Source: a virus
Reading direction: 5' to 3' (one strand)
IMG/VR virus record: IMGVR_UViG_3300036790_000806
Span: 1 to 25,780 of that record
Length of the DNA: 25,780 nucleotides
In this document: in pieces, positions 1-13,789 of the stretch
Layout of the letters: each line of letters starts with the position of its first letter
Numbering within the stretch: position 1 is the first letter of the stretch
Made by a program: the position numbers and the translations under genes
The notes under the pieces: model-generated
What the model was told of the DNA's origin: nothing
Database searches by the model: none
Seen by the model: only the letters and a program-made list of their open reading frames with translations

Positions 1-2487
1 CTATTGGACCAATCCATTGATGATGGTGAAGGTCGTATTTGCGCACCCTGTTGGCGCGCCTCCGGTGACTGAAGTGCAGGATGTCACCACCATACTCCCG
101 GTAAGTCCTGTGCCCGCAGGCGCGGTATTCGTGCACGTTGCGGCTCCCGTGGTCGGTGAGCACGAGATGCCAGATCCTCCCGTGATCGAAGTCACACCGG
201 TATTCCTCCCCGGCGCTCCTTGGAGTATCCAATTTGAAGGCACGCCGAGGATCACACCCACAGCCTCGAAAGTTGCCGATTTTCCAGGGGTCCATGCCTG
301 GCCCAGCATATTGCCGTCGAACTGCTCTAATATCGGCACTGGACCCGTGCCGTTGATATTTAACGTGTTTACCCCCGTCTGAAGGGAGTGACTCAGCAGG
401 ACAGGCACTTTCATCCCTGTCACGATGGGCATTGGCAAGCCGGTGGCGGCGTCATATAAATCAGCCACCAAGGCGTTATTAGCGCTTCCCGCGATCTCCT
501 GTACAAGATTTGTGTCCTGGCTTTGAGTTACCGAAGGGCTCGATATGGTCGATTCGACGCCCGCGAAACTAATCCCGGCTGTCTGCGACAAAGGCCAGGG
601 GTTGTAGCATGGGATCACCGTTTCAGCGATTGTCATGTTACTGCACTCAATGTGAGTGCCATCGCCGTTATCGATGATCGCTTCATTAAGCGCGTTGCCG
701 AATCGACTCCAGGCGATTGTGGCGGCCTTCGGTCCGAGCCCACTCATAGGATCCCGCGCAAACACCACAGGGGTAGCGGTTGAGCCCGTATCGAGCGTCG
801 CACCTTCAATGCGGAGCTGGTAGCTGCCATACAGGCCGAGAATGACCGGACTCGCCACGCCGATCGCCGAAGTCAAGTACCCGCCGTGGATCAAGGTATT
901 TGCCGATTTATCCCGCACCGCCGCTGTATAACAGGCCTCGTCGTCCACGCCGTTGAGCATCACGTTGGACGAATTCAGAATGTCCGTGCAAATATTGTTC
1001 GTCTCGCTCGTTCCGCCCGCCACTTCGATCGCCGTGCTTGCGTTGATCCATATGCCTGTGCCGCCCGTGCCATATCCGAAAGTGACGGCAGTTGAGCTAA
1101 GCGCTGCAGTCGTCGGCAGCGAAAGGACGATAGATGCCGTACCGCCTCCGGATGCAATTGTGGTGGCAGGGGCGATCCCAACCCCTTGTACATATTGACC
1201 GTTCACGGTTCCGACGCCGCTGGCGACGGCAAGTGATGTGCTTCCGCTCGTTGCGGTGCCTGTGGTGACAGCCAAGGCCCGCTGCGAGATCGCGACGTAC
1301 TCGATGCGTGGAGCATTCGCCCGAATGCCATTGGAACTGAGAATTTCGAGGCCGGTGGAAGGTTCAAGACCCATTCCCCACGCCGCTGCGTCATGTGTGA
1401 CGTGCAGCGACTCCAGCGTCCCTATGACGCAGGTGTCGACCAGCACCGCCGTCGCCCCGCCAGCCGCGCGCACGTCACGCACAACGAAGTGCTCGGCCTG
1501 GTACAGGTGGATCGCGTTAGTGACCAGCGCATTATTCCCGTAGATTGTGCAGCCGTCGAGTACCTGCCAGCTTCCCAATCCCAGCCCCGCGTTGCCCATG
1601 TAGACAAAATCTGTAAGAGCGCCGCTCCCCGCGTATTGGACTACGACGCCCCGGTCGCAATATAAGCCGGAGTAGGGGCGCGTGATTGCGATCTGACTGA
1701 GGGCCATGTACGGCGCGCCGTTACTTGTTTCCGGCAACCGGCATGAGTTCCACACGGCATAACAGGCATTGATCGCGGGAACCACGTCCTCAGTGCCCGC
1801 GTTCACGGCATCCGCATTGGCCGCGAAGTCGAGCACGCTCTTGGAATCGCGCGCCTTGTCCTCCAGGCTGCGCCCCACCGCGTTTACCCCTGCCGCTATA
1901 AAAGAAGGCGGTGTGGCTTTGCCCGTTGCCGACACTGACCAGGTATCGGCCGCCGTGTGGCCCGTCGTCGCGGCCCACTGCACCGTCAGCCCGTCATTTC
2001 CTGTCGCCACGCCGCCGGATGTCCAGGTGCCGGGGTCCGACGCGACAGGAACCGAAAAATGAGAGGAATCGATTACGGTGACAGGTAAAAGCGTCACATT
2101 GTAGCCGCTCGGGCTGGCACCGCCGACGGTTACCAGCGTGCCGGTTGCCATCGCGTGCCCGACATCGGTAAACGTAACGCGCCCTGCGCTCCAGCTCGCA
2201 CCGGTGATGAAACCAGCGCCATAATACAGCGGCTGAGGCGCGGACGTCATGGCGAAGGGGCCGATCGGAGCCACGCCGTCGCGGTCGTAATTGACGGTGT
2301 CAGTTCCTCCCGTCGCGGCGACGGTGATCGTATAGCGATGATTTCGCGGCAGGCCCACATAAGAGCCCGTAACGGCAATATCATTCAGCCCTGTGCCGAC
2401 GAATGCCGGAGCGCCAATCTCCGTTCGAACGATCTGCCCGTGGACGATGAAGCAACTGCAAAGAAGGAGGAACGATAGTTTTCTCAT
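1..2487 (-). CDS. Beta-helix tailspike/receptor-binding protein with signal peptide (828 aa)
   Basis: Complete: ATG 2485-2487, TAG at 1-3. Residues 1-18 read as a Sec signal peptide (MRKLSFLLLCSCFIVHGQ). Residues ~95-165 carry a beta module common in phage tail proteins (VTFTDVGHAMATGTLVTVGG, then IDSSHFSVPV). GRSLEDKARDSKSVLDFAAN (206-225) is the entry to a right-handed beta-helix of the pectate-lyase type, with turns such as FVVRDVRAAGGATAVLVD. A later Ser/Thr module (~405-470) and a Cys-bearing tail follow. Such spikes bind or cut surface polysaccharide; no catalytic residues can be assigned by eye. It follows the hub gene by ATGA overlap, the usual place of a receptor-binding protein. Confidence 0.8.
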   Translation of the reverse strand: MRKLSFLLLCSCFIVHGQIVRTEIGAPAFVGTGLNDIAVTGSYVGLPRNHRYTITVAATGGTDTVNYDRDGVAPIGPFAMTSAPQPLYYGAGFITGASWSAGRVTFTDVGHAMATGTLVTVGGASPSGYNVTLLPVTVIDSSHFSVPVASDPGTWTSGGVATGNDGLTVQWAATTGHTAADTWSVSATGKATPPSFIAAGVNAVGRSLEDKARDSKSVLDFAANADAVNAGTEDVVPAINACYAVWNSCRLPETSNGAPYMALSQIAITRPYSGLYCDRGVVVQYAGSGALTDFVYMGNAGLGLGSWQVLDGCTIYGNNALVTNAIHLYQAEHFVVRDVRAAGGATAVLVDTCVIGTLESLHVTHDAAAWGMGLEPSTGLEILSSNGIRANAPRIEYVAISQRALAVTTGTATSGSTSLAVASGVGTVNGQYVQGVGIAPATTIASGGGTASIVLSLPTTAALSSTAVTFGYGTGGTGIWINASTAIEVAGGTSETNNICTDILNSSNVMLNGVDDEACYTAAVRDKSANTLIHGGYLTSAIGVASPVILGLYGSYQLRIEGATLDTGSTATPVVFARDPMSGLGPKAATIAWSRFGNALNEAIIDNGDGTHIECSNMTIAETVIPCYNPWPLSQTAGISFAGVESTISSPSVTQSQDTNLVQEIAGSANNALVADLYDAATGLPMPIVTGMKVPVLLSHSLQTGVNTLNINGTGPVPILEQFDGNMLGQAWTPGKSATFEAVGVILGVPSNWILQGAPGRNTGVTSITGGSGISCSPTTGAATCTNTAPAGTGLTGSMVVTSCTSVTGGAPTGCANTTFTIINGLVQ

Positions 2488-5400
2488 GGAATTGGTTGAT
2501 CTCCTGTACTGGAAAGCAAAATGTGATTACCCGCGCCGTCGTAGTAGATCATCGCTGTGACCTGCGTGTTTGGCGGAGATTGTTCGGTGCTCAGGGCGAA
2601 AGTGAGCCCGTCGCCCGGAATCATGGCGTGGCCGCCGACACCGTCCTGAGAAACGGTCATCACCCACAGGAACGCCCCCAGCCCGGATGTGTTGATGGCT
2701 GAAATGCGGGTGTGCTCGGTCAGGGTGACCTTCATAGTGCGCGCAACCGTGAAATCGAGGCCGGCTGCGGCATCCACGACGGCGGCCGTAAAGTGAGGCA
2801 GGAAGGACGAACCCGCCGACACCCCCGTGGGAATCAGGCCGCCCACGCTCTGCGAGTAATTAATCGGGTCCTGATTCGATACCGCCGAGCCCGCATAAAC
2901 GACGACGTTAAACAGCGCGATATTGGCGTTTTGGAGCTGCTCGGTCGCGCCCCACGACGCGGCGTCGGCCGTCGCGAAAAAGTTGAGTGGAAAGGTGTAG
3001 GTGAAAGCGGCGCTGACAAGCTTATAGATGCCGTCGCCAATTGCGTGATTCTCGGCCGCCGTCAGTCCCAACGCCCGCTCGACCGCGACGTCGGCAGACG
3101 TTGCATCGGCGGTAACAAACATCATTTCCCCACCGGCCAGAATCCAATCGCCGTTCCTAATGATGCCGGTCATATCGGCGTCGAGATGGATCGTCTCCGC
3201 CGCGCCGGACACAGCCGTGTTTGCCAGCGCGGCCGTCAAATGGGCGGTTGGCGAGGCAGTGGCGTCCTGATAGAGAACCACAATCACAGCGGAGGTGATC
3301 TGTGACGTTCCCGTGATTGAGGCAAAGGTAACAGGCTTCCACGTCACAGTGCCCCCGCCTGCGCTCTTGATCCCGGAGATCGGCGTCGGAGGTGTGGGAC
3401 CGGAGAACACAGCCGGTACCGTCACAGTCACCTGAGGAGCCGTATCGTCATACAGGCCCGTGTCATAGAGCTGTCCGACGATGTCCACTTCGTCGTCGGC
3501 CGTGAATCCAAGCTCGATCGCGCGGAAAGGAACGGCCTGCAACCCATGCTCGACGGCATCCACCGCGATCACGTCAGCGATTTCAATCGCCGAAGCCGAA
3601 ATATCGCCCCTCAGTGAGACGAAAATGCCCTGCCCGCGATACATGGCCAATTGCCACTGTCCGACGCGCCACGCCTGAAAGTAGCTGTCGATCGCCGAGC
3701 CGTCGAAATCCTGATCGTTGACCTTGCGAACCTTCGCCTGGTTATCGAAATCGTTGACGTAGAGCGTGCGCTGCGTGACCGCGGGGCTGTCGGGGTATTT
3801 GACGTTCACCCGGTTAATGGAAGACTGGCGATCGCTGAGCGGGTACTGGACGGGCGTCGTGCCGACAATGTTCGAGTCGTTGAAATACATCGACACCTTA
3901 AGCAGCTCGTCGCCGATGGCGTGATTTTTCGTGGCCGCGGCCGCAAGTGTGAGGCGGTCGGAGAGAACGACCGCGACCCTAAGCACTTCCGCGTTGATAG
4001 TGAACGTCGAAGCGATAAACAGGTCTCCAACACCGAACTGGCTCGGATCGGCGCACAGAATCTGCATCGCCCCCGGAACGCTGGCCGTCGACACGGCGGT
4101 GTGAGGGTTTGCCCGCTCACTGCAGATTTGAATTTTCCCCTGCTTGTTGATCTTCAGATAGCCGCGGAACGCAGGCAGGATCGTCTGATACAGAAGGTCA
4201 ATTGACGACGCCTGCTGGGCGATCGCGAGGTTCACGGTGAACCGCTTTACATTGACGATGTCGGGAGCGCGGGAAGTGTCGTCATCGACGCCGACAACAA
4301 AGGTTGCGTACGGGCCGTCCGCGGTCGGATCCTGAAACTGCACGCAGGTGCTGCGATAAGCGCGGTAATTATCCCCAATCGTCATCCCTGTCGGAAGAGA
4401 GGTGGGCGCGTAGATTTTCTGACAGTTGGTCGGGTCTTCAATGAACTCGTCCGTATAGGCCGATTCCACGTAATTCTGCACGTCGTCGAAGAAATCCCAC
4501 GGAATGCCCATCCCGCCTTCGGCCAGTGGAAGCGTCATCAACGCACGCGCGTTCCAGATCGCGTTATCGGTCCAGGTCTTTACAACCCACGCCCCGGTTC
4601 CATCGAATTGATCGACCAGGAGGCCGCCGATCATCGCGGTGACGCTCGGAGCCGGATCGTCAGCGCCGACCGTGGATGGAATTGCCACCCCGAGATATGC
4701 GAGAAGGCTATACGGATATGAGGGCAGAATTGTGTCGGGTAACTGCGACCCCGTGCCTCCCAGATCCCCGAGATGCCCCTCGACGCCGGTGATGGTTACG
4801 TTGTTGGCAGTGAAGAACTCAAACCAGCCTATTGGCCCGACACAGAATGCGACCAGGGCCGCGAGATACGGGCCGAATGTCATTGAGTCTTCATCCGCGT
4901 GCTCCAGCGGTATCCCCTGCAGGAGCGCGCGCCCCAGCACGATAGGAATGGGCACGTCATACGGGGTATCGTCAAGCGAGCTGTAGGAGACCGTAATAGT
5001 GCTGGTCTTTTTTCGCGAGAAAAACAGCAGAAAACGGGATTGAGTGACCTCTTTATATTGATAAGTCCCCGTGACAGGCATGAAGCGGAAACCACCGAAC
5101 TTGTCGGTATTGGCGAGAGAGGCGCAGTTCGACCAGGAATGATCGCAATCGGTGGCTGTGCCGGAATATGTGCATTCGGGACCCCTGAACGGCCAGGGGC
5201 AGGTAGCGCCGAAAAGCCGGGCCGGGATATCGGAATCGATGCTGCCCAGATATTCGAGCGCGACAATTTCGCACACGTTCTCATCCACATTGCCCGGCCG
5301 CTGGATCTGACCGATAAAAAGGGGCAGCGAGTCGTCTGTAACGGTCCGGTCGATCTTACGGATCGTCAGGATGCCGCCCTCGACATCGTTCACCGCGATG

Positions 5401-5642
5401 AGCTGCGCGAGAGTGAGATCGACGTTTGAAAAGGTGACCGTCACCTGATCGAACTGTTCGCTCATATAGCGCTTGACGTCGGAGCGCGTCATCACGTAGG
5501 GAAGGTAGTGTTTGCCGTTCCAAGTGATGTCCTGATCCGAGTAGTAATAAGTGCCGCTGTCGAGCTGCAGCTCGTAAAGATCGACCGGTTGATTCGTCTG
5601 CGCGGCGAAAGCGGCCGCCAGATCGGGCAGCAGATCGATCAC
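2484..5642 (-). CDS. Tail tip/hub protein with gpL-like cysteine domain (1052 aa)
   Basis: GTG start at 5640-5642 overlaps the previous stop. Residues 1-185 match the minor tail protein L plan (VDLYELQLDSGTYYYSDQDI at the start; FGATCPWPFRGPEC later), with cysteines 148, 157, 166 and 173 spaced like those that hold an iron-sulfur cluster in lambda gpL. A central part (~200-760) looks like a tail hub (SINRVNVKYPD, then VSLRGDISASAIEIADVI). Two copies of a ~60-residue beta module ending NHAIGD (about residues 525-585 and 815-880) follow, then a Thr/Ser-rich end. In lambda these functions are on separate proteins L and J, so this is a fusion. It overlaps the tailspike gene by ATGA. Confidence 0.85.
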   Translation of the reverse strand: MIDLLPDLAAAFAAQTNQPVDLYELQLDSGTYYYSDQDITWNGKHYLPYVMTRSDVKRYMSEQFDQVTVTFSNVDLTLAQLIAVNDVEGGILTIRKIDRTVTDDSLPLFIGQIQRPGNVDENVCEIVALEYLGSIDSDIPARLFGATCPWPFRGPECTYSGTATDCDHSWSNCASLANTDKFGGFRFMPVTGTYQYKEVTQSRFLLFFSRKKTSTITVSYSSLDDTPYDVPIPIVLGRALLQGIPLEHADEDSMTFGPYLAALVAFCVGPIGWFEFFTANNVTITGVEGHLGDLGGTGSQLPDTILPSYPYSLLAYLGVAIPSTVGADDPAPSVTAMIGGLLVDQFDGTGAWVVKTWTDNAIWNARALMTLPLAEGGMGIPWDFFDDVQNYVESAYTDEFIEDPTNCQKIYAPTSLPTGMTIGDNYRAYRSTCVQFQDPTADGPYATFVVGVDDDTSRAPDIVNVKRFTVNLAIAQQASSIDLLYQTILPAFRGYLKINKQGKIQICSERANPHTAVSTASVPGAMQILCADPSQFGVGDLFIASTFTINAEVLRVAVVLSDRLTLAAAATKNHAIGDELLKVSMYFNDSNIVGTTPVQYPLSDRQSSINRVNVKYPDSPAVTQRTLYVNDFDNQAKVRKVNDQDFDGSAIDSYFQAWRVGQWQLAMYRGQGIFVSLRGDISASAIEIADVIAVDAVEHGLQAVPFRAIELGFTADDEVDIVGQLYDTGLYDDTAPQVTVTVPAVFSGPTPPTPISGIKSAGGGTVTWKPVTFASITGTSQITSAVIVVLYQDATASPTAHLTAALANTAVSGAAETIHLDADMTGIIRNGDWILAGGEMMFVTADATSADVAVERALGLTAAENHAIGDGIYKLVSAAFTYTFPLNFFATADAASWGATEQLQNANIALFNVVVYAGSAVSNQDPINYSQSVGGLIPTGVSAGSSFLPHFTAAVVDAAAGLDFTVARTMKVTLTEHTRISAINTSGLGAFLWVMTVSQDGVGGHAMIPGDGLTFALSTEQSPPNTQVTAMIYYDGAGNHILLSSTGDQPIP

Positions 5643-5995
5643 GCAGTTACTTCCTGCAGCTCGACTGTTCCGTCGTAGAAGTTATAGCCGCTGTTCTTGA
5701 ACGATGGAACGGCGTTATAGCGGACAAGAATTACTTCGGCGCGGTCGGGGTGCGTCCAGTGAAACGAATCGCGCGTCGCGTTCTGGCCTGCAAAATGGTT
5801 AACAATATTCAACCGCTCCGCGTTCGTGATCGGCAGATCGGAACCGAAACTCAGCTTGAATATGCGTTTCTTGCCCGATCCCTTCAGCCGCCGTTGCTCA
5901 CTGCCGTCGCGATGCGTCGAGACAAGTACTTCAGGCGCGATCTCGGTCTCTTCGATCGGATAGGAAGGGAGCGGAGCGCCGGGGAAATCAGCCAT
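5639..5995 (-). CDS. Minor tail protein (gpM/DUF2460-like, 118 aa)
   Basis: ATG at 5993-5995 overlaps the tape measure stop by 8 bases. The protein starts MADFPGAPLPSYPIEETEIA and is beta-rich, with KKRIFKLSFGSDLPITNAER and FHWTHPDRAEVILVRY. Proteins of this size and opening just after the tape measure are distal or minor tail proteins that attach the tip to the tube. The end overlaps the hub gene (GTGA). Family placement between gpM-like and DUF2460-like is unresolved. Confidence 0.7.
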   Translation of the reverse strand: MADFPGAPLPSYPIEETEIAPEVLVSTHRDGSEQRRLKGSGKKRIFKLSFGSDLPITNAERLNIVNHFAGQNATRDSFHWTHPDRAEVILVRYNAVPSFKNSGYNFYDGTVELQEVTA

Positions 5996-8735
5996 TCGCC
6001 ACCTGCTTGATCACGGTTCGCAGCGTGCCGTTCCCCGATACGTCTTTACTCACCGCATTAACCACAAATGCGCTGGTGGGCCTGACTTCGAGCTGGACTA
6101 TATGCTGCGTCGGCTGAGCCTGGCCGGAGTTTTGCGCACCTCCGGAAGCTCCCACGTTGATAGTCGCCGGGTTGACGTTCGTAGAAGACGAGCCGGAAGA
6201 CGCCGGCGAGGCGGCCGCGCTCGGCGCCGCGCTCGATGAACTCGACGCCCCCGAAAGAGCGCCACCGAGGGCCGCGAGAGCGGCTCCCGCAGCTATCGCT
6301 TCGATGCCGGTGGCGAAATTCGCGCCCATCAGCCGGCCGGTAAGCGTCAGCGCCGCCGCGCACTCCGCCACGCCAGTCTGAATTAACATGACCCCCATGT
6401 GTGTGAACATCTGCCCGATCATCGAAACAAACGACGCCAGCAGTTTCTTGCCTGCGTTATCCTGCCCACTCGTCAAATCCGAGAAGAAGGTACTGAATGA
6501 CTGCCCCGCCTGGGACGAGAACTGCTTGACCTGATTTTTCATCTGGGTCATGGCGTCCTGGAAGGGGTGAAAGTTCATCTTGTTGAGCTTGTCCAGCTCA
6601 ACCTGCAGTTTGTCGATCTGATTGAGTTGGTCCGTACTGATAATCGGCTGCGCCTTAAGTTCGGCGAGCTTCTTTTTTATGGTGTCGATTACAGCCGGAA
6701 GCTGACCCAGCACCGCCGCGGCGGTCTGCCCCGAAATGGTTCCTTTTGCGGCCATCTGGACAGCCTGCTGAATCTCCCTGGCCGTCGCGATCGCGTCCGA
6801 GATGGCCTTTTTCTCCTGCTCCTTGCGGAGTTGCTCGCGCTTTTGCGCCGCTTCCGCCTCCTGCCGAAGCTCCTCATTGTTGAGTTGCTGGATTGCGGTC
6901 AGATACTCATTATTCGCCTCGATTTGCAGTCGGATTGTCTCGGCACTATCGCCGCTGGAAAGCTCCTGTATCTTCTCCAGATGCTGCCGGAGTTGCTCTT
7001 CCGCCTTGCTGTATCCGGACGACGAGGCGTCGAGGAGTTGATTTTCAAAGTCGCGAACTTTCCCCAGGCGCTGCTGCTCGGCAGCATCGGCCTGAGCCTG
7101 CTCCTGATCGCGCGCCGCCTGGCGGCGCTGCCGGAACGCCGCCCAGATCCGCTCGATATCCGCTATGCGCTGCTCGTTCGAGACTTGAGTCTGGCGCGCA
7201 ATCTCAGCACCCTTTTGTGCCGCTTCCTCCATCTCCTTTTGTTCCGGAGTAGCAACCGACTGGCTGTTCTGAAACATGATGCCGCGCAGCGTTTCGAGCT
7301 GCTGCGCCAGCGCCTTCGCCGATTCCTCGGCATCTCTGGAAGTATCTGCATTGGCTTTCAGCGCGCCATTTGCAGTGATTGTCTTGCCCCGTAAGGCTTC
7401 CATCTCATTCGCGAGTTTCGTTGTTTGTGCCGCGAGATCGGAAGCCATCTTTGCGCCCTTACCGACGCCATCGAAGGAAGCCTTAAACGCTTTATCCGCG
7501 GACTCCGCCACATGTTGCGCTTTATCAGCGAAGGTATCGAGCCATCGCGTGACTCCGGCAAATTCACCCGAGACAGATTCAAGGATCTGGCTTAGCGTCG
7601 CCAGCACCTTCGCAATAATCGCTGTACCACCTGCAAAGACGTTCACTCCCGCGAGAAAGTCAGCTTTCATTGCAGCCCAAACGTTTTCCCAGATCGGCGC
7701 GAAGAAGGCGATATTACTCGCCAGCGCGGCGATGGAGCGAAGCAGGGAAATCAGCGCCGCATTCGTTGCCAACGCAACCTGTGTGACCTTATCGTCGGAA
7801 ACCGATAGTCCCAGCAGTTGCTCCTGCAGATCCGCGAGAAGCGCCTGCAGGACGGAAGATTGTAATACCGCAGCGCCGAATTGATCGGTAAGGTCTTTCT
7901 GAGCGTTCTTCGCGGCCGTGAGCACTTCGTCCAGCGTCAGATAGCTCGGCCCCAGCCGTTCCACGGCCTCGCTGGTCTTGCCCAGCAGTTCGTTGTAGAA
8001 CGCCGTGAGTTTCGAACTGTCGGCGATCTTGGCCGCACTCACATCCATCTCGGACGCCATGGCGCTCACGGCGTCCGTTACCGCCAGATGGACGCCGATC
8101 GCCGGGCCGAGCGCGCGCGACTGTCCGCGGATAAGAGCTTCAGTGAGCGCGTCCTGCGCGGCTACGGCGTCCTTGCCCTGCGACTTGGCGAGACGGCCGA
8201 CATTCTCCACCAGCTTGAGATATTGCTCGCCCTCCAGTGGCAACGCAGCAGACATAACGCGCGAAGCGTTACTCATCAGCTTTGTCGCCCCTACTTGTCC
8301 CTCCGTGGCATTTCGAAGCGCAACGAGCGAGACGGCCTGATTACCAGCGGCGGCCGTCAGTGCGTCGAAGGACTGCTTAACCTGGAAATATTCGGAGGCT
8401 TCCCTTACAGTCTCCGCCACAAAATCCGCGCCTGCCTTTGCTGCGCGAATGAAGACCTCAGTCGCCGCGATTCCAAATGCGGCCGCGCCCAGGCTCATTT
8501 TTTTGAACGAACTATCGCTCTCATCGGCCGCTTTGGATAACTGCGACCGCCACGACTCCAGCGAACCCACGGTCGATTCAAATGCCGCATCGATCCCGGC
8601 GGCGGCCGCCGCGCCGCCGTCCTTCATCGAGGAGAAGGCATTCTGCATCAGTTTGCGCGTGTTCTCGACTCCGGCTTCAATGCCGTCCTCATACTTTGAC
8701 CGGAGAACCGCCTCAACTGTGTTATTCGCTGCCAT
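5988..8735 (-). CDS. Tail tape measure protein (915 aa)
   Basis: Sets tail length and is ejected ahead of DNA. It is long and mostly helical, Ala/Gln/Glu-rich, with coiled coils (roughly 480-650, e.g. AAQKGAEIARQTQVSNEQRI) and hydrophobic stretches near residues 330-390 and 790-850 (VMLIQTGVAECAAALTLTG; GIEAIAAGAALAALGGAL) that could cross a membrane. The end is Ser/Ala-rich then beta. The ATG at 8733-8735 has only a weak GAG upstream. It follows the chaperone extension by a 126-base space and overlaps the next gene by 8 bases. By the usual rule of about 0.15 nm per residue, the tail would be near 135 nm; no sheath gene is present. Confidence 0.93.
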   Translation of the reverse strand: MAANNTVEAVLRSKYEDGIEAGVENTRKLMQNAFSSMKDGGAAAAAGIDAAFESTVGSLESWRSQLSKAADESDSSFKKMSLGAAAFGIAATEVFIRAAKAGADFVAETVREASEYFQVKQSFDALTAAAGNQAVSLVALRNATEGQVGATKLMSNASRVMSAALPLEGEQYLKLVENVGRLAKSQGKDAVAAQDALTEALIRGQSRALGPAIGVHLAVTDAVSAMASEMDVSAAKIADSSKLTAFYNELLGKTSEAVERLGPSYLTLDEVLTAAKNAQKDLTDQFGAAVLQSSVLQALLADLQEQLLGLSVSDDKVTQVALATNAALISLLRSIAALASNIAFFAPIWENVWAAMKADFLAGVNVFAGGTAIIAKVLATLSQILESVSGEFAGVTRWLDTFADKAQHVAESADKAFKASFDGVGKGAKMASDLAAQTTKLANEMEALRGKTITANGALKANADTSRDAEESAKALAQQLETLRGIMFQNSQSVATPEQKEMEEAAQKGAEIARQTQVSNEQRIADIERIWAAFRQRRQAARDQEQAQADAAEQQRLGKVRDFENQLLDASSSGYSKAEEQLRQHLEKIQELSSGDSAETIRLQIEANNEYLTAIQQLNNEELRQEAEAAQKREQLRKEQEKKAISDAIATAREIQQAVQMAAKGTISGQTAAAVLGQLPAVIDTIKKKLAELKAQPIISTDQLNQIDKLQVELDKLNKMNFHPFQDAMTQMKNQVKQFSSQAGQSFSTFFSDLTSGQDNAGKKLLASFVSMIGQMFTHMGVMLIQTGVAECAAALTLTGRLMGANFATGIEAIAAGAALAALGGALSGASSSSSAAPSAAASPASSGSSSTNVNPATINVGASGGAQNSGQAQPTQHIVQLEVRPTSAFVVNAVSKDVSGNGTLRTVIKQVANG

Positions 8736-8861
8736 ATAATCAGCTCGGGATGCTTGCCTTGGCCATCGTCGTCTTCTTCGCCGCCGTATTAGCCTGGCGG
8801 GTCGTCGCGAAGACGGCGTTGCGGGCCGCTGTCCTCGCGATCGATCTGGCGATTGCGCCTC

Positions 8862-9586
8862 TCAGACTGATGCTTTGGGCATTGCGGCTTCGATGTCCCT
8901 CACTTCGTAAAACCGCGTGATTACCGCGATTGCCTGCCAGTCCTCGAATCCCAACCCTTCTCCGCTCAGGTCGTAACCCGCTTTGTGCCAGCCATAGAGA
9001 CGCGTCAGGTTGTCCGTCCAGGTCCTGAACTCCCACGGGAAGTGGGCTTCCAGCTTGCGGAATTTGCAGATCCGGCAGTAACCTTCGTCGTCCCGATTGA
9101 TGGCTGGACATTCGTCGCACGTCTTTTCCTGTTCGGCGTAATCGGCCTGGAGATAGTCGAGAACCAGCGCCGCTAGTTTTTTGTTGCGCCTTCGTCTTCG
9201 CCCACGTTGGCGGAATCCTCAAATTGCTGGGCGGCGCTGGATTTCCAGCTCAACGGGATCAGATCCTTCCACGACTGGACCGGCTCGCCCTGAATTCCCG
9301 ACCAGTAAGTCTTGTCCTGATCTTCGAGCACCGTCCGCGCGTTCAGCGGCTTTTCCACGCCGTCCGCGCCCACGTAGGTCGCGTTCTCGATGTCGATAGC
9401 GATCTTGTCGATGAATTCCTGCCGCGCTTCATAGACATGGGATTTCACCTTGTTGCGTTTCGTCTCGAAGCGCGCGTTGAGAAATTTGCTGAGTTCGGCG
9501 GCCGAGGGAACCCGGCACACGAAAACAACTGTTTCGCCGCTCACATCGACGGCGATTCTGCGATTGGGGGATGCTGCTAATGGCAT
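8862..9586 (-). CDS. Tail assembly chaperone, -1 frameshift (GT-type) product (~241 aa)
   Basis: After slipping at 9176-9182, the -1 frame is open for 104 more codons to TGA at 8862-8864. The added part begins LAALVLDYLQADYAEQEK and holds two CxxC pairs (TCDECPAI and GYCRICKF), a likely zinc knuckle, followed by a conserved-looking helical part (WTDNLTRLYGWHKAGYDL, then FEDWQAIAVITRFYEV). The long form links tape measure and tube subunits in lambda-type assembly. The extension has no start codon of its own that would explain its length. The order short chaperone, extension, tape measure is standard. The zinc pairs are an uncommon addition. Confidence 0.85.
9173..9586 (-). CDS. Tail assembly chaperone, short (G-type) product (137 aa)
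   Basis: The start is ATG 9584-9586, with GAGGAG nine bases upstream (9596-9601); a longer open frame upstream is less likely because it would overlap the esterase end. The protein begins MPLAASPNRRIAVDVSGET and has the helix and strand pattern of tail assembly chaperones, with a charged end (EDEGATKN). Such proteins bind the tape measure during tail assembly. The last codons before the TAG are ACA AAA AAC, a slippery heptamer, so a fraction of ribosomes should continue into the next frame. It lies directly before the tape measure, as in lambda-like phages. Confidence 0.8.
   Translation of the reverse strand: MPLAASPNRRIAVDVSGETVVFVCRVPSAAELSKFLNARFETKRNKVKSHVYEARQEFIDKIAIDIENATYVGADGVEKPLNARTVLEDQDKTYWSGIQGEPVQSWKDLIPLSWKSSAAQQFEDSANVGEDEGATKN
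9176..9182 (-). promoter_or_regulatory. -1 programmed ribosomal frameshift site A AAA AAC
   Basis: The heptamer is in the correct phase: zero-frame codons ACA AAA AAC, then TAG (9173-9175). Tandem -1 slippage gives AAA AAA then CTA. Four bases after the heptamer a stem can form: GGC-(G)-CTGG (9171-9164) with CCAGGCC (9150-9144), seven pairs with one bulge and a 13-base loop. A GAAGG lies about seven bases upstream and could act as a stimulating Shine-Dalgarno-like site. Confidence 0.85.
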
Positions 9587-9614
9587 TGAACTGTTCTCCT
9601 CTTTTTCTAAAAAT

Positions 9615-10826
9615 TTAAAACGCCCAGCCCGCCGGATGGGGGCCAAGAATGAACTCGAAAGCGTTGCTGATTGCGGTGTCGTTTATTCCTGCGCCGAGCC
9701 CGCCCTCGTGCGTGGCATCGGCTCCGGTTGCAATAACATAAGTCGGCGTCATGGGGCTGCTCAGCGCGGCATATGCTGCCATCGTGCAGACTTCCTGTCC
9801 GCCCGCCCCCGAGTTCCACGTAGGTTGCACTATCGTGTCCGAAGCACCCCAAAGGAAGTACCAATTGGGACTGAGGAACGCGGCGTTGGCGTTCGTAATG
9901 TTCTGGCAGGGACTGCCGTGGAGCGCGGCATCATTCGCGCGTATAGTGGCAAGGACATTGCTGTCCAACTGCTGCTGTATGGCCTGCGTAAAGGGCGCGG
10001 CTCCATTGCCGTCGTAGCCGCTATTACCGGAAGGCAACGCCCAGGACATCGCCGGCCAGAGAGACGCACCTACGAAGCCGCCGGAAGGATAGGCAGCCGG
10101 GGCCGTGCAGGTTCCCGATGTTCCGTAGAATGAATTACTCGTATTGCCAACAACCCAAGCTGTGTTTCCGCCCCACGACGGTCCCATCGCGGCGAGTATT
10201 GACGGAGCGACTTGCGGCCCTCCGGAAATAAGGCTCGGAAGGTTTGCGAGAACCCACCAGGCTGCGCACTTGGCGTCCTGTGCGCCGGCCGGAAATGTGT
10301 TCGTGCCTATTGCCGTGGCGAGACGATAATCGACCATGACGATGCCGACCCCGACGCCTCCGAGCCGATTCCGCCGCCGCGCATATTTTTGGACCGATTC
10401 GACGGCAACCAGCGGGGTGTCTCCGGCCCCGAAGCAGCCCTCCCGATACCCCCCGAATCCGCCGCCCCCGTGGTAGCAGATCACCCACTGGATTCCAGCC
10501 AGATCAACGTTGGTGGGCCAGAACACGTCCAGGCAGTCGACACTCCCAAAGGTTGCACCTGTTGTGCAGGGAAAATCGGAGTCGTAGATTTGAGCGAATA
10601 GGCAACTCACCGAGGATGTGGTGCCGTCCGCATACATGATGGTTGTGTTGGGGATACTGTACGGCGTTGAAGAGCTTGCCGCCGCTCCGCAGTCAACCCA
10701 TGGTGCGATTCCGGTGTGGGGATCGACGGCCGGGCAGCCGCTCTGGTCGTTACGGTTGCAGCCTGAGCCGAACGCGGAAGGCACGGAGGCAAGAGCGAAA
10801 AACAAGATCAGCAGTGGGCTTTTCAT
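9615..10826 (-). CDS. Secreted alpha/beta-hydrolase, probable carboxylesterase (403 aa)
   Basis: Residues 1-20 form a Sec signal peptide (MKSPLLILFFALASVPSAFG). The mature enzyme has the oxyanion-loop motif YHGGGGFGG (118-126), strand IVMVDYRLA (162-170), the nucleophile elbow GPSWGG with S217, D330 in WGASDTIVQP and H373 in ATHEGG. This Ser-Asp-His triad and HGGG motif define the hormone-sensitive-lipase/polysaccharide-esterase side of the fold. About twelve cysteines suggest disulfides outside the cytoplasm. It lies between the collagen-repeat gene and the tail chaperone, starting two bases after the previous stop. It may deacetylate or otherwise de-esterify a surface polymer. A fibre-borne enzyme and a lysogen-exported enzyme are both possible. 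Confidence 0.8.
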   Translation of the reverse strand: MKSPLLILFFALASVPSAFGSGCNRNDQSGCPAVDPHTGIAPWVDCGAAASSSTPYSIPNTTIMYADGTTSSVSCLFAQIYDSDFPCTTGATFGSVDCLDVFWPTNVDLAGIQWVICYHGGGGFGGYREGCFGAGDTPLVAVESVQKYARRRNRLGGVGVGIVMVDYRLATAIGTNTFPAGAQDAKCAAWWVLANLPSLISGGPQVAPSILAAMGPSWGGNTAWVVGNTSNSFYGTSGTCTAPAAYPSGGFVGASLWPAMSWALPSGNSGYDGNGAAPFTQAIQQQLDSNVLATIRANDAALHGSPCQNITNANAAFLSPNWYFLWGASDTIVQPTWNSGAGGQEVCTMAAYAALSSPMTPTYVIATGADATHEGGLGAGINDTAISNAFEFILGPHPAGWAF

Positions 10827-10828
10827 GG

Positions 10829-12346
10829 TTAATTGGGGAAATACCCGGAAGCGCCGATCAACGACGCCGAGTTACCCGCCTGCGTCGTCTGGTTATAGAG
10901 AACATTCGGGTAGAGGCTTCCTGTAGTGGCAATCCCGGTAACGATGCCGGATAGCTGGTTGCCCCGGACCTGACCATTTGAAGCGTTCCAGAATCCGTTG
11001 CTTCCCGCTCCGCAGGAAAGCGTACCCGGCGTGCTCACGATGCAATCCACCACGATTTCCCAGTTGCATACGCCGCTTGCGAAGCACAGCGTGGCCGTGA
11101 GGTAGTCGGTCAAAGCGACACAGCCGGTGCCTGCTCCGGTGCATAGCGCCGAATTAAACGACGCACTGGAATTGGTGCTGCTTACGGTCTGATCTACTTT
11201 GAATCGCAGTAGAAACTCGCGGCCTGTCGTAAGGGCGCTTGCAGGGAAATTGACGCCGCTGTTCATGGCAAACGGCTGGTTAGCGCCGCTACTGCTCAGC
11301 TTGTCCGTGGTGTCCGAAGCGTTCGCGAATGCCGCGAACATCGCGTTTTTGGCAAAGCAGTTGGTTACCTGCGCGCAGGTATAGTCCCCGGTACCTGCGA
11401 CGACAGCGCCAGTCCGCGGCGATCCCGATGGTCCGAAGCTGCTGACGCCGCTCGCGCCACCTGCAGCCGCATTAAAGCCGGGCCAAATAAGCACCGTGAA
11501 AGTCGCGTTTGCCGCAGCTCCGGTGTCGGCAGTGCCGATTACCCATCCGCTGGAGGGAGCCGTTGCGCCCGCGTCTCCGCATCGACCACCGGTGGTCGGC
11601 GAATTGACAACGAAATGACCTTGCGTGACGCCAGCGGAATCTGCCTGGCAGGTCGCCGTGCCCGCCACGGCGACGGTCGGGCTGCCGGCCGTTCCGGCCC
11701 CACTCACGACAATTCCAACCGGAATGGCGGTGTCGCTTGTTGTGGCGTTTACAAAGCTGCCGGATACCAGTTTCACGGTGCCGTTTAGCGTGGTGCCCGT
11801 GCCGGCATCGTTAGGTATGCTCGTTACTACATTGCCTGTTCCGGCCGCCCCCGCGGCTCCCGTTGGACCTGTGGATCCCGTTGGTCCGGTAGGCCCGGTC
11901 GCTCCTGTCGGTCCTACAGGCCCCAGCGCACGATGCCCGGCGTAATTCGATCCATCCGTCCAGATTGTCCAACCGTCCGCGTTCGAACCACTGAGGGCAA
12001 CCATCGCGGTGGGCGCGCTCGCTGAGTTATTGAGAGTCAGCCCGTTCAGCGCGATCGAAAGAGTGGTCGAAGTGCTCCAATTAACCAGGCCGAACGGGCA
12101 TGAGTCTATTGGCGGATTCGCAAGCGTGACAGTCAGCGAAGAACCGTTGAATGGCACCATCTTTCCGCACCAACCCGACTGGACCGTTTGCGATGTCGTA
12201 TAGACCGGCAGAAAGTCGCCCAGTCCGGCCGCTGGTCCGGTTGGACCGGCCGGCCCCTGAGGACCGGTTGGACCCGCTCCGCCGCTTGGGAACGGCGCCT
12301 GTGCAAACAGGGATACCGAAAAGAGAAGAATCCCGATGCCCTTCAT
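10829..12346 (-). CDS. Secreted collagen-repeat protein, fibre-like (505 aa)
   Basis: The first ~17 residues are a Sec signal peptide (MKGIGILLFSVSLFAQA). Two Gly-X-Y collagen-like runs follow: residues ~22-39 (GPTGPQGPAGPTGP) and ~143-171 (GPTGATGPTGPTGSTGPTG), separated by a beta domain. Residues ~180-505 are Ser/Thr/Gly-rich and beta-rich with several Cys pairs, and end ASGYFPN. Collagen repeats trimerise and are common in tail fibres. The signal peptide and the cysteines are unusual for a virion protein made in the cytoplasm. ATG directly follows the TGA of the preceding gene, in frame. It may be a fibre or a secreted surface protein. Confidence 0.75.
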   Translation of the reverse strand: MKGIGILLFSVSLFAQAPFPSGGAGPTGPQGPAGPTGPAAGLGDFLPVYTTSQTVQSGWCGKMVPFNGSSLTVTLANPPIDSCPFGLVNWSTSTTLSIALNGLTLNNSASAPTAMVALSGSNADGWTIWTDGSNYAGHRALGPVGPTGATGPTGPTGSTGPTGAAGAAGTGNVVTSIPNDAGTGTTLNGTVKLVSGSFVNATTSDTAIPVGIVVSGAGTAGSPTVAVAGTATCQADSAGVTQGHFVVNSPTTGGRCGDAGATAPSSGWVIGTADTGAAANATFTVLIWPGFNAAAGGASGVSSFGPSGSPRTGAVVAGTGDYTCAQVTNCFAKNAMFAAFANASDTTDKLSSSGANQPFAMNSGVNFPASALTTGREFLLRFKVDQTVSSTNSSASFNSALCTGAGTGCVALTDYLTATLCFASGVCNWEIVVDCIVSTPGTLSCGAGSNGFWNASNGQVRGNQLSGIVTGIATTGSLYPNVLYNQTTQAGNSASLIGASGYFPN

Positions 12347-12760
12347 TCAGTAAGTCCCCGTCATGTAGCCGTTGAGTCCCGCGCCGTCGGCAACCCACCT
12401 GACGCCGCCTTCGCAAGACACCCCATCCGCGGGGAGCTGCACGGGAACGTTATTCGCGCCGGCGGTGTACCCCGGAATGGTCGCCTTCACGAAGATGGTT
12501 CCCGTCGTCTTGCAGGTGACAGTGACTGTGACCGAAGTCGAAGCGTTAGTGTTGACAAACCAAATGCTCCTGACGATGACTCGCGACTGCCTGTCCGCCG
12601 AGGGGGTCATTGCATCGGCGATAGTGGTCGGAACCGCGGCGAGCGGAATGTAATCGTGATGCGTGACGGCGTCCGGCATAGCGGCTTGCTGGGCGAGGAG
12701 CGGTGAAGCGATCAGCGAAGCGACCGCAAGAGTGAAAGCGAATAAGAGCAGGAATCGCAT
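12347..12760 (-). CDS. Small secreted beta-rich protein (137 aa)
   Basis: Residues 1-24 are a clear Sec signal peptide (MRFLLLFAFTLAVASLIAS, cleavage probably after LLAQ). The mature part is beta-rich: SRVIVRSIWFVNTNASTSV, TVTVTCKTTGTIFVKATIPG, and a last strand DGAGLNGYMTGTY, with two cysteines (C83, C116) that could form a disulfide after export. Its ribosome site AAAGGAG (12770-12776) overlaps the stop of the tail tube gene and matches those of the capsid and tube genes, so it is probably made in quantity. It may be a surface or decoration protein; no family was recognised. The next gene starts directly after its stop. Confidence 0.7.
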   Translation of the reverse strand: MRFLLLFAFTLAVASLIASPLLAQQAAMPDAVTHHDYIPLAAVPTTIADAMTPSADRQSRVIVRSIWFVNTNASTSVTVTVTCKTTGTIFVKATIPGYTAGANNVPVQLPADGVSCEGGVRWVADGAGLNGYMTGTY

Positions 12761-12775: not shown

Positions 12776-13789
12776 TCAGGCCGTGGCCAGATAGCTGTGC
12801 GCGAAAAGGTTCGTTACCCGGATATCGCACCCGCCGAAGGTCGGATCGCTGAGGACGGCGAACTTGCCCGCGATTTTGAGAATTCCATCCGCGACGCCTT
12901 TCTTCGTATCCTTGAAGACCGCACGCGGCAGCACGATATCCACCGTGTAATTCGCGGCGCCATTGGCGACGCCGCCGACGATGGGGATATGAACCACATA
13001 CTCGGTTCCCGCAAGCAGAGCGGCGCGCTGGGAACGATCTTCGAGTTCGATCTCAGCATCCAGTTCTACGGAATAGGTCAGGCCGCGGCGAATCGCTCCG
13101 ACATTGCCGGTTGAATCGCCGACGTTATATTTGCCCTTTCCGTTGTTTTTGAACGCGAACTTGAAATTAACGAGCTGAGCGGAAATCGCCGTCGCGCCGG
13201 TGACGGCCGTCCCGTCGTAAGCTCCGCCCATCGCGAAGTTGCAATCGCCATAAGCGAGATACGATTCCGGATTCGCGGCGGGCTTCGCAGTGGCATCCGC
13301 GCCTTCGGATGCGCGGCCCATCAGATCGGCCTCAAACTCCACAAACTGCCCGCGGGAGCCCGACAGCGTAAATCCGGTGCACGCCACGCCGGGATATGCA
13401 AACTGACTGCTGCCGTCGTTTTCCACCAGCGTCCGATAGGGAAGCTCCACTATCCCGCTGTTCATCTGCAGCTTGTGACTGTAAGCCGTGGTCGCGCCGA
13501 CGACGGTCGCCGTGTCTTCGCCCATCGCCATGGAGGCGAAGAGCGCTACCACCGTGGGCGTCGCCTTGCATTTGTGCTTCCCCGAGAACTTCATATTGAG
13601 GAGCTTATGTTTCGTCGGCAGCAGGCTCCCCGTGATTTCCGTCGTGTTCTCGAAGAACGTCTCCGGATCGGGCTCCATCAGATCGGTTCCCTCGAAATTG
13701 AGCAGCTCCGTGACGGTCTGGGCCGTGCCGATTGCCGTCTGGCAGAGGTCCGAAACCGCCCGCCAGCCGCCGGTTAATGATTGAGGCAT
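12776..13789 (-). CDS. Major tail tube protein (337 aa)
   Basis: Forms the stacked rings of the tail tube. ATG at 13787-13789 follows AAAGGAG by nine bases (13799-13805), a strong site suited to an abundant protein. The sequence is almost all beta strand, with tube-protein features: TEITGSLLPTKHKLLNMKFS, a region GVACTGFTLSGSRGQFVEFE, and the last strands IPIVGGVANGAANYTVDIVL. It stands between the tail terminator and the chaperone, separated from the chaperone by three secreted-type genes. At 337 residues it is longer than compact tube proteins, so it may include an extra surface domain. Confidence 0.8.
   Translation of the reverse strand: MPQSLTGGWRAVSDLCQTAIGTAQTVTELLNFEGTDLMEPDPETFFENTTEITGSLLPTKHKLLNMKFSGKHKCKATPTVVALFASMAMGEDTATVVGATTAYSHKLQMNSGIVELPYRTLVENDGSSQFAYPGVACTGFTLSGSRGQFVEFEADLMGRASEGADATAKPAANPESYLAYGDCNFAMGGAYDGTAVTGATAISAQLVNFKFAFKNNGKGKYNVGDSTGNVGAIRRGLTYSVELDAEIELEDRSQRAALLAGTEYVVHIPIVGGVANGAANYTVDIVLPRAVFKDTKKGVADGILKIAGKFAVLSDPTFGGCDIRVTNLFAHSYLATA

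Follow-up and report, generated by a model that had tools for sequence, protein, structure and literature searches.

The stretch of DNA analysed (the window), 25,780 bases long, is a virus record from IMG/VR. It has 26 genes on the minus strand, among which family searches identified those for a terminase, a portal, a Mu-F protein (PF04233), Neck1, a tail tube protein, an L/J-like tail tip protein (hereafter J) and a glucosaminidase (Table 1). From position 1958 to 25780 it is almost identical to a 37-kb record, IMGVR_UViG_3300036820_000641 (G001), gene products of which resemble a transposase and its ATPase partner, as judged by eye from size, position and appearance and without a family match. 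These products, the Mu-F protein and the terminase, which shares approximately 30% identity with the terminases of transposable Pseudomonas phages, make the window phage a probable transposable siphophage. A second record, IMGVR_UViG_3300033817_000038 (G002), encodes a tube protein and a terminase that are 62-69% identical to those of the window. Comparison of the terminase with bacterial genome contigs returned distant matches only; going by the style of the leaders described below, the host is suspected to belong to the Acidobacteriota. Between the window and G001, the tape measure gene (window 5988-8735) differs at 178 of 2748 bases, with 101 nonsynonymous differences, and its flanking genes differ at none.

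The probable tail assembly chaperone gene ends (window 9173-9185, minus strand) with the -1 slippery heptamer placed directly before TAG, and a -1 shift at this site opens a frame of more than 100 residues that resembles the second part of the chaperone in G002. The heptamer and this frame together probably constitute a classic tail chaperone frameshift.

Table 1. Features of the window. Positions of the 137-, 505-, 403- and 828-residue proteins are those of the list of open reading frames; numbers after "signal peptide" are scores, and a slash marks the predicted cleavage site.
Feature	Position	Strand	Basis
Tail tube protein, upstream of the cassette	12776..13789	minus	PF18906 (2.7e-10); phrog_290 (3.9e-16)
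137-residue protein, no family	12347..12760	minus	Signal peptide 12.6; model all beta behind a leader helix (pLDDT 48)
Predicted signal peptide of the 137-residue protein	12692..12760	minus	MRFLLLFAFTLAVASLIASPLLA/Q, after LLA; authors' reading
505-residue collagen-like/tail-fibre-like protein	10829..12346	minus	phrog_8745, tail fiber (2.7e-08); weak Collagen match; signal peptide 11.2
Predicted signal peptide of the 505-residue protein	12302..12346	minus	MKGIGILLFSVSLFA/Q, after FA; authors' reading
403-residue predicted esterase	9615..10826	minus	BD-FAE (2.5e-06); phrog_3341 (7.5e-06); signal peptide 12.1; PDB esterases
Predicted signal peptide of the 403-residue protein	10767..10826	minus	Likely cleavage MKSPLLILFFALASVPSAFG/S; scorer
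Probable tail assembly chaperone	9173..9586	minus	Position; AAAAAAC before stop; same position in G002, L036 and L038
Tail tip protein, J/L-like, 1052 residues	2484..5642	minus	Phage_tail_L (4e-06); phrog_778 (1.5e-15); phrog_31 (1.2e-14)
828-residue probable tail spike (receptor-binding protein)	1..2487	minus	4-bp overlap with J; signal peptide 12.0
Predicted signal peptide of the 828-residue protein, residues 1-17	2437..2487	minus	Likely cleavage MRKLSFLLLCSCFIVHG/Q; scorer; unchanged in the G001 spike
N-terminal region of the spike, to approximately residue 177, no cysteine, common to G001	1958..2436	minus	DNA and protein alignment
Swapped C-terminal part of the spike, all 13 mature cysteines	1..1957	minus	Unlike G001

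Signal Peptides of Four Tail-Region Proteins

Signal peptides were scored by custom rules, not by SignalP, on the basis of a basic n-region, an uncharged hydrophobic core and small residues at positions -3 and -1. On two stretches of the E. coli K-12 chromosome used for calibration, annotated exported proteins mostly scored 10-14 and most cytoplasmic proteins gave no match, with a few membrane proteins scoring as well. Among the open reading frames of lambda, HK97 and D3112, the strongly scoring coding sequences include those of Lom, Bor, RexB and the spanins, and none encodes a tail structural protein. In the window, the four proteins originally predicted to carry Sec signal peptides, and exactly those four of the 26, gave scores (Table 1), while the same scorer found no match in the other 22 genes. 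Given that 35 of 11,000 shuffled window proteins (0.3%) scored at least 11, the occurrence of four signal peptides among 26 genes lies far beyond chance.

The cleavage sites of the 505- and 137-residue proteins were read by eye, the scorer having favoured nearby positions. A lipobox is absent from all four leaders, and the full n-h-c anatomy with a cleavage site is present in four unrelated proteins, one of which is an esterase. As expected for exported proteins, the mature parts are rich in cysteine, which accounts for 39 of their 1798 residues (2.17%) compared to 44 of 6028 (0.73%) elsewhere, an approximately three-fold enrichment (p=1.3e-6). Judged from these features of their sequences, the four leaders very probably function as Sec signals.

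The Three-Gene Cassette

The genes for the 137-, 505- and 403-residue proteins lie between those for the tail tube, assigned by Pfam and PHROG, and the chaperone, assigned by its position and slippery site, and their order is that of the original prediction. The 403-residue protein matches PF20434 (BD-FAE) with 27.6 bits against a cut-off of 26.8, and it contains the nucleophile motif GPSWG, which fits the pattern GXSXG, with candidate Asp and His residues; by family match and motif it is a predicted BD-FAE-type, or alpha/beta hydrolase, esterase. With the 137-residue protein, Pfam, PHROG and further family searches gave no match. Of the domain types first proposed, family matches were obtained for the esterase and, weakly, for the collagen repeat of the 505-residue protein; a beta-helix in the 828-residue protein found no counterpart in Pfam.

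The genes are co-directional and tightly packed, with gaps of 15 bp between tube and 137, 0 between 137 and 505, 2 bp between 505 and 403, and 28 bp between 403 and chaperone. Good ribosome-binding sites are found at the 828 and 137 starts, and the 505 and 403 genes start at or just past the preceding stop. Around the cassette, a search confined to sigma-70 and terminator consensus sequences detected nothing like a promoter or a terminator beyond chance level which, together with gaps of 0-28 bp, favours late lytic expression over that of a moron expressed in the lysogen.

Both the window phage and G001 carry the cassette between tube and chaperone. In G002 and two further relatives (L036 and L038), all approximately 60% identical, the chaperone directly follows the tube and the cassette is absent from that position. 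Searches of IMG/VR with each of the three proteins found no relatives other than those of the near-identical G001, and neither the phage collection nor plasmids contained a match to the 505- or 403-residue protein. The cassette is an optional, lineage-specific insertion within the late tail operon. A foreign composition was considered and rejected, as its G+C and third-position G+C contents lie inside the range of the other genes and match the rest of the phage. As an optional insertion between conserved genes the cassette is moron-like by position; it was not classed as a strict moron because control signals of its own were not detected.

The Probable Tail Spike

While the cassette is a lineage-specific insertion, the gene for the 828-residue protein occupies the standard spike slot beside J. 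The J gene is almost unchanged between the window and G001 (27 of 3159 bases differ), and the DNA of the two corresponds as far down as window position 1958 and differs below it. The G001 counterpart, a protein of 920 residues, has the same leader and N-terminal region followed by a different C-terminal part; in this part lies RVSVKDFGGLGDG, the linker of spikes of the pectate-lyase type, and its match to phrog_1171 is weak (0.0012). In both mature proteins, all of the cysteines are located after residue 226. The 828-residue protein itself matched no family in Pfam and other family searches and nothing in the phage collection, and its N-terminal region retrieved from IMG/VR only G001 and three proteins that matched weakly through a generic repeat domain. 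Replacement of the C-terminal part beside a nearly unchanged J is the usual behaviour of receptor-binding proteins, which suggests this function for the 828-residue protein, and its location, its modularity and the linker motif of its sister make a receptor-binding tail spike its most likely identity. G002 has no separate spike with a signal peptide and possesses a longer J instead. A 214-residue open reading frame of G002 (L018; 34796-35440), flanked by a lysin-like gene and a large gene of the tail region, has an internal start that by eye reads as a signal peptide, MRALFLIILTCASLAGQ.

Recurrence in Other Phages

The best distant match of J was found in the phage record MW202444, where J is followed by the gene for a 1253-residue fibre with the leader MRKILLVLTLLFATIPALA/T. 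The last 60 residues of this fibre, a query that is uninformative on N-termini, were used to search IMG/VR, and 20 distinct full-length proteins with the same fibre tip were recovered. Seventeen of the 20 carry a signal peptide compared to 16 of 183 other open reading frames (at least 100 residues, same strand, same loci). The two counts allowed for start codons in slightly different ways, and the 20 proteins include related ones and so represent fewer than 20 independent events. Tail spike or fibre families were matched by three of the 17, these being the protein at L063 (phrog_2234, 8.8e-15; also PF12708) and, more weakly, those at L064 and L068. Behind its leader, the L063 protein has a domain resembling the start of a leaderless fibre at L052, a locus with three fibre genes sharing the same start; at L051, a terminase gene lies close by in the same direction.

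The fibre tip itself comprises 46 residues with four invariant cysteines (YCSDCTIANPCAGxGTGAxAKRLNGxWVCN) and is C-terminal in many uncultivated phage proteins (loci L047-L072, e.g., L049:5213-5350 and L063:8043-8180). It matched no Pfam, PHROG or NCBIfam model in the scanned proteins, and its structure model, like that of the 137-residue protein, is of low confidence. When bacterial genomes were scanned with a profile of the tip, the 399 from one phylum yielded nothing, and the 294 from a second phylum a single partial match covering 18 of 46 positions. The cysteines of the tip were rejected as proof of export, since leaderless versions retain all four.

Three further arrangements were observed. 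At L047:5609-8156, three consecutive genes encode signal peptides, the last of them with the fibre tip, in a row resembling that of the window. An unrelated phage contig (L042:3167-3721) has a signal-peptide gene between what by gene order appear to be tube and chaperone, the latter followed by an apparent tape measure gene; this is the slot of the cassette. A prophage-like stretch of a bacterial genome (L076:1133-6294) contains tube, chaperone, tape measure and J genes and then a number of genes with signal peptides, together with a fragment of an integrase gene. The open-access literature, to which the search was mostly confined rather than subscription journals, yielded no precedent for Sec signals on tail fibres.

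Proposed Export of Late Tail-Region Proteins

Tail fibres and spikes are taken to assemble in the cytoplasm. The four genes of the window are proposed to encode late phage proteins that are exported by the Sec pathway of the host. Cassette and spike proteins would be made during lytic growth and then translocated, to fold with disulfide bonds outside the cytoplasm and be retained at the cell surface or in the periplasm. Following export, the 828-residue spike would be added to the tail tip, and the simplest occasion for this would be lysis, which mixes virions with periplasm. The cassette proteins (esterase, collagen-like fibre and small beta protein) would act on or coat the surface polysaccharide of the host, whether as additional components of the tail or through changes to receptors that spare progeny from loss on debris. 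A late Sec-exported spike that becomes virion-borne after export, accompanied by surface-acting cassette proteins, is considered the best explanation, tentatively and at somewhat below an even chance. Features evident from sequence underlie it: the signal peptides, the organisation of the operon, the inserted cassette and the replaced domain of the spike. The arrangement in MW202444 of J followed by a signal-peptide fibre, as in the window, also counts in its favour, as do the frequency of signal peptides among the fibre-tip proteins, the spike match at L063 and the likeness of the L063 and L052 domains. Counting against it, the 828-residue protein has no family match, G002 has a longer J in place of a separate signal-peptide spike, pectate-lyase-type spikes and esterases are ordinary secreted enzymes too, and we know of no mechanism for attachment outside the cytoplasm in the window phage. 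The signal peptides, the discrete inserted cassette and the cysteine-rich mature parts support the claim that the tail region contains an export module. With respect to its two proposed forms, a fibre or spike set added outside the cytoplasm fits the 828-residue protein better, by location, modularity and linker, and display on the lysogen surface fits less.

The four proteins could instead be secreted late and remain outside the virion, where the esterase would strip or mask receptors and the collagen-like fibre coat the cell, thereby blocking superinfection and re-adsorption as does T5 Llp, an exported lipoprotein that blocks the receptor (PMC9586334); the 828-residue protein would then be a secreted enzyme or adhesin. 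The signal peptide on the esterase and the occurrence of PF12708 in both signal-peptide spikes and secreted polysaccharide enzymes are in keeping with this alternative, which we nevertheless consider rather unlikely given that the constant N-terminal and replaced C-terminal parts of the 828-residue protein, beside J, look like those of a virion-bound receptor-binding protein, and that the leader at L063 precedes a domain which starts a leaderless fibre at L052. Lysogenic conversion of the moron type, with expression from the prophage and display on the lysogen, has its model in lambda Lom, a lysogen-expressed protein with a signal peptide whose gene neighbours J (PMC12309495). HK97 gp15, an annotated moron product from the equivalent tail region, the optional nature of the cassette and the signal-peptide genes after J in the host-associated stretch L076 could all be accommodated by it, but the failure to find promoter- or terminator-like elements above chance (sigma-70 consensus only) and the short gaps and coupled starts, which fit a late operon, make it improbable. 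That the leaders are hydrophobic anchors or trimerisation helices of a tail assembled in the cytoplasm would agree with the constant N-terminal region of the spike, as in virion-binding domains, and is very improbable in view of their complete anatomy and cleavage sites, present in four unrelated proteins of which one is an esterase, the cysteine enrichment of the mature parts, and the L063 leader ahead of a domain that elsewhere begins a leaderless fibre.

Beyond the window, late export of spikes may extend to a widespread class of tailed phages that makes Sec-exported, disulfide-bonded receptor-binding spikes and fibres and adds them to the virion outside the cytoplasm, a possibility suggested by the sequences, with the balance leaning against it. 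This wider pattern in uncultivated phages is a more interesting result than the window alone. Spikes with export signals would mean a second assembly route involving oxidative folding and attachment after lysis; otherwise, phages would secrete a large and so far unrecognised set of surface proteins. Either outcome would change how receptor-binding proteins from uncultivated phages are identified and expressed.

Comparison with Known Systems

Lambda Lom and T5 Llp are the known exported proteins most readily compared to those of the window. Like the latter, Lom is exported by means of a signal peptide and encoded in the tail region adjoining J (PMC12309495); unlike them, it is an outer-membrane barrel expressed from a single gene in lysogens and is neither a spike nor an esterase nor a collagen-like fibre. 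The gene for Llp, a small lipoprotein that is exported, is located just downstream of that for the receptor-binding protein pb5 (PMC9586334), and hence Llp shares with the window proteins export and a receptor-binding neighbour. It acts in the infected cell and is small and lipid-anchored, whereas the window proteins are large and have no lipobox. Lom and Llp thus provide precedent for exported proteins encoded beside receptor-binding genes, although neither is a spike.

With respect to position, the cassette resembles the HK97 gp15 moron, also an optional gene within the stretch of tube, chaperone and tape measure. The gp15 gene has 63 codons, lies between chaperone and tape measure and is followed by an annotated terminator, whereas the cassette consists of three large signal-peptide genes in the slot between tube and chaperone and has no terminator of its own. 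D3112 and B3 resemble the window phage in their terminase (approximately 30% identical), Mu-F protein and similar order of head and tail genes; in D3112, however, the chaperone directly follows the major tail gene and the tail genes lack signal peptides. RcapMu, a transposable phage, has among its tail genes one for a DUF303 protein (annotated maturation/adhesion), a member of an esterase-type family. It differs from the 403-residue protein in its location after J, its lack of a signal peptide and its family. The pectate-lyase-type spikes (PF12708, phrog_2234 and phrog_1171) are similar to the 828-residue protein in that they are modular, with a constant N-terminal and a replaced C-terminal part, and adjoin J. 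The tail structural genes of the isolate phages scored here have no signal peptide, whereas spikes of the window type carry one.
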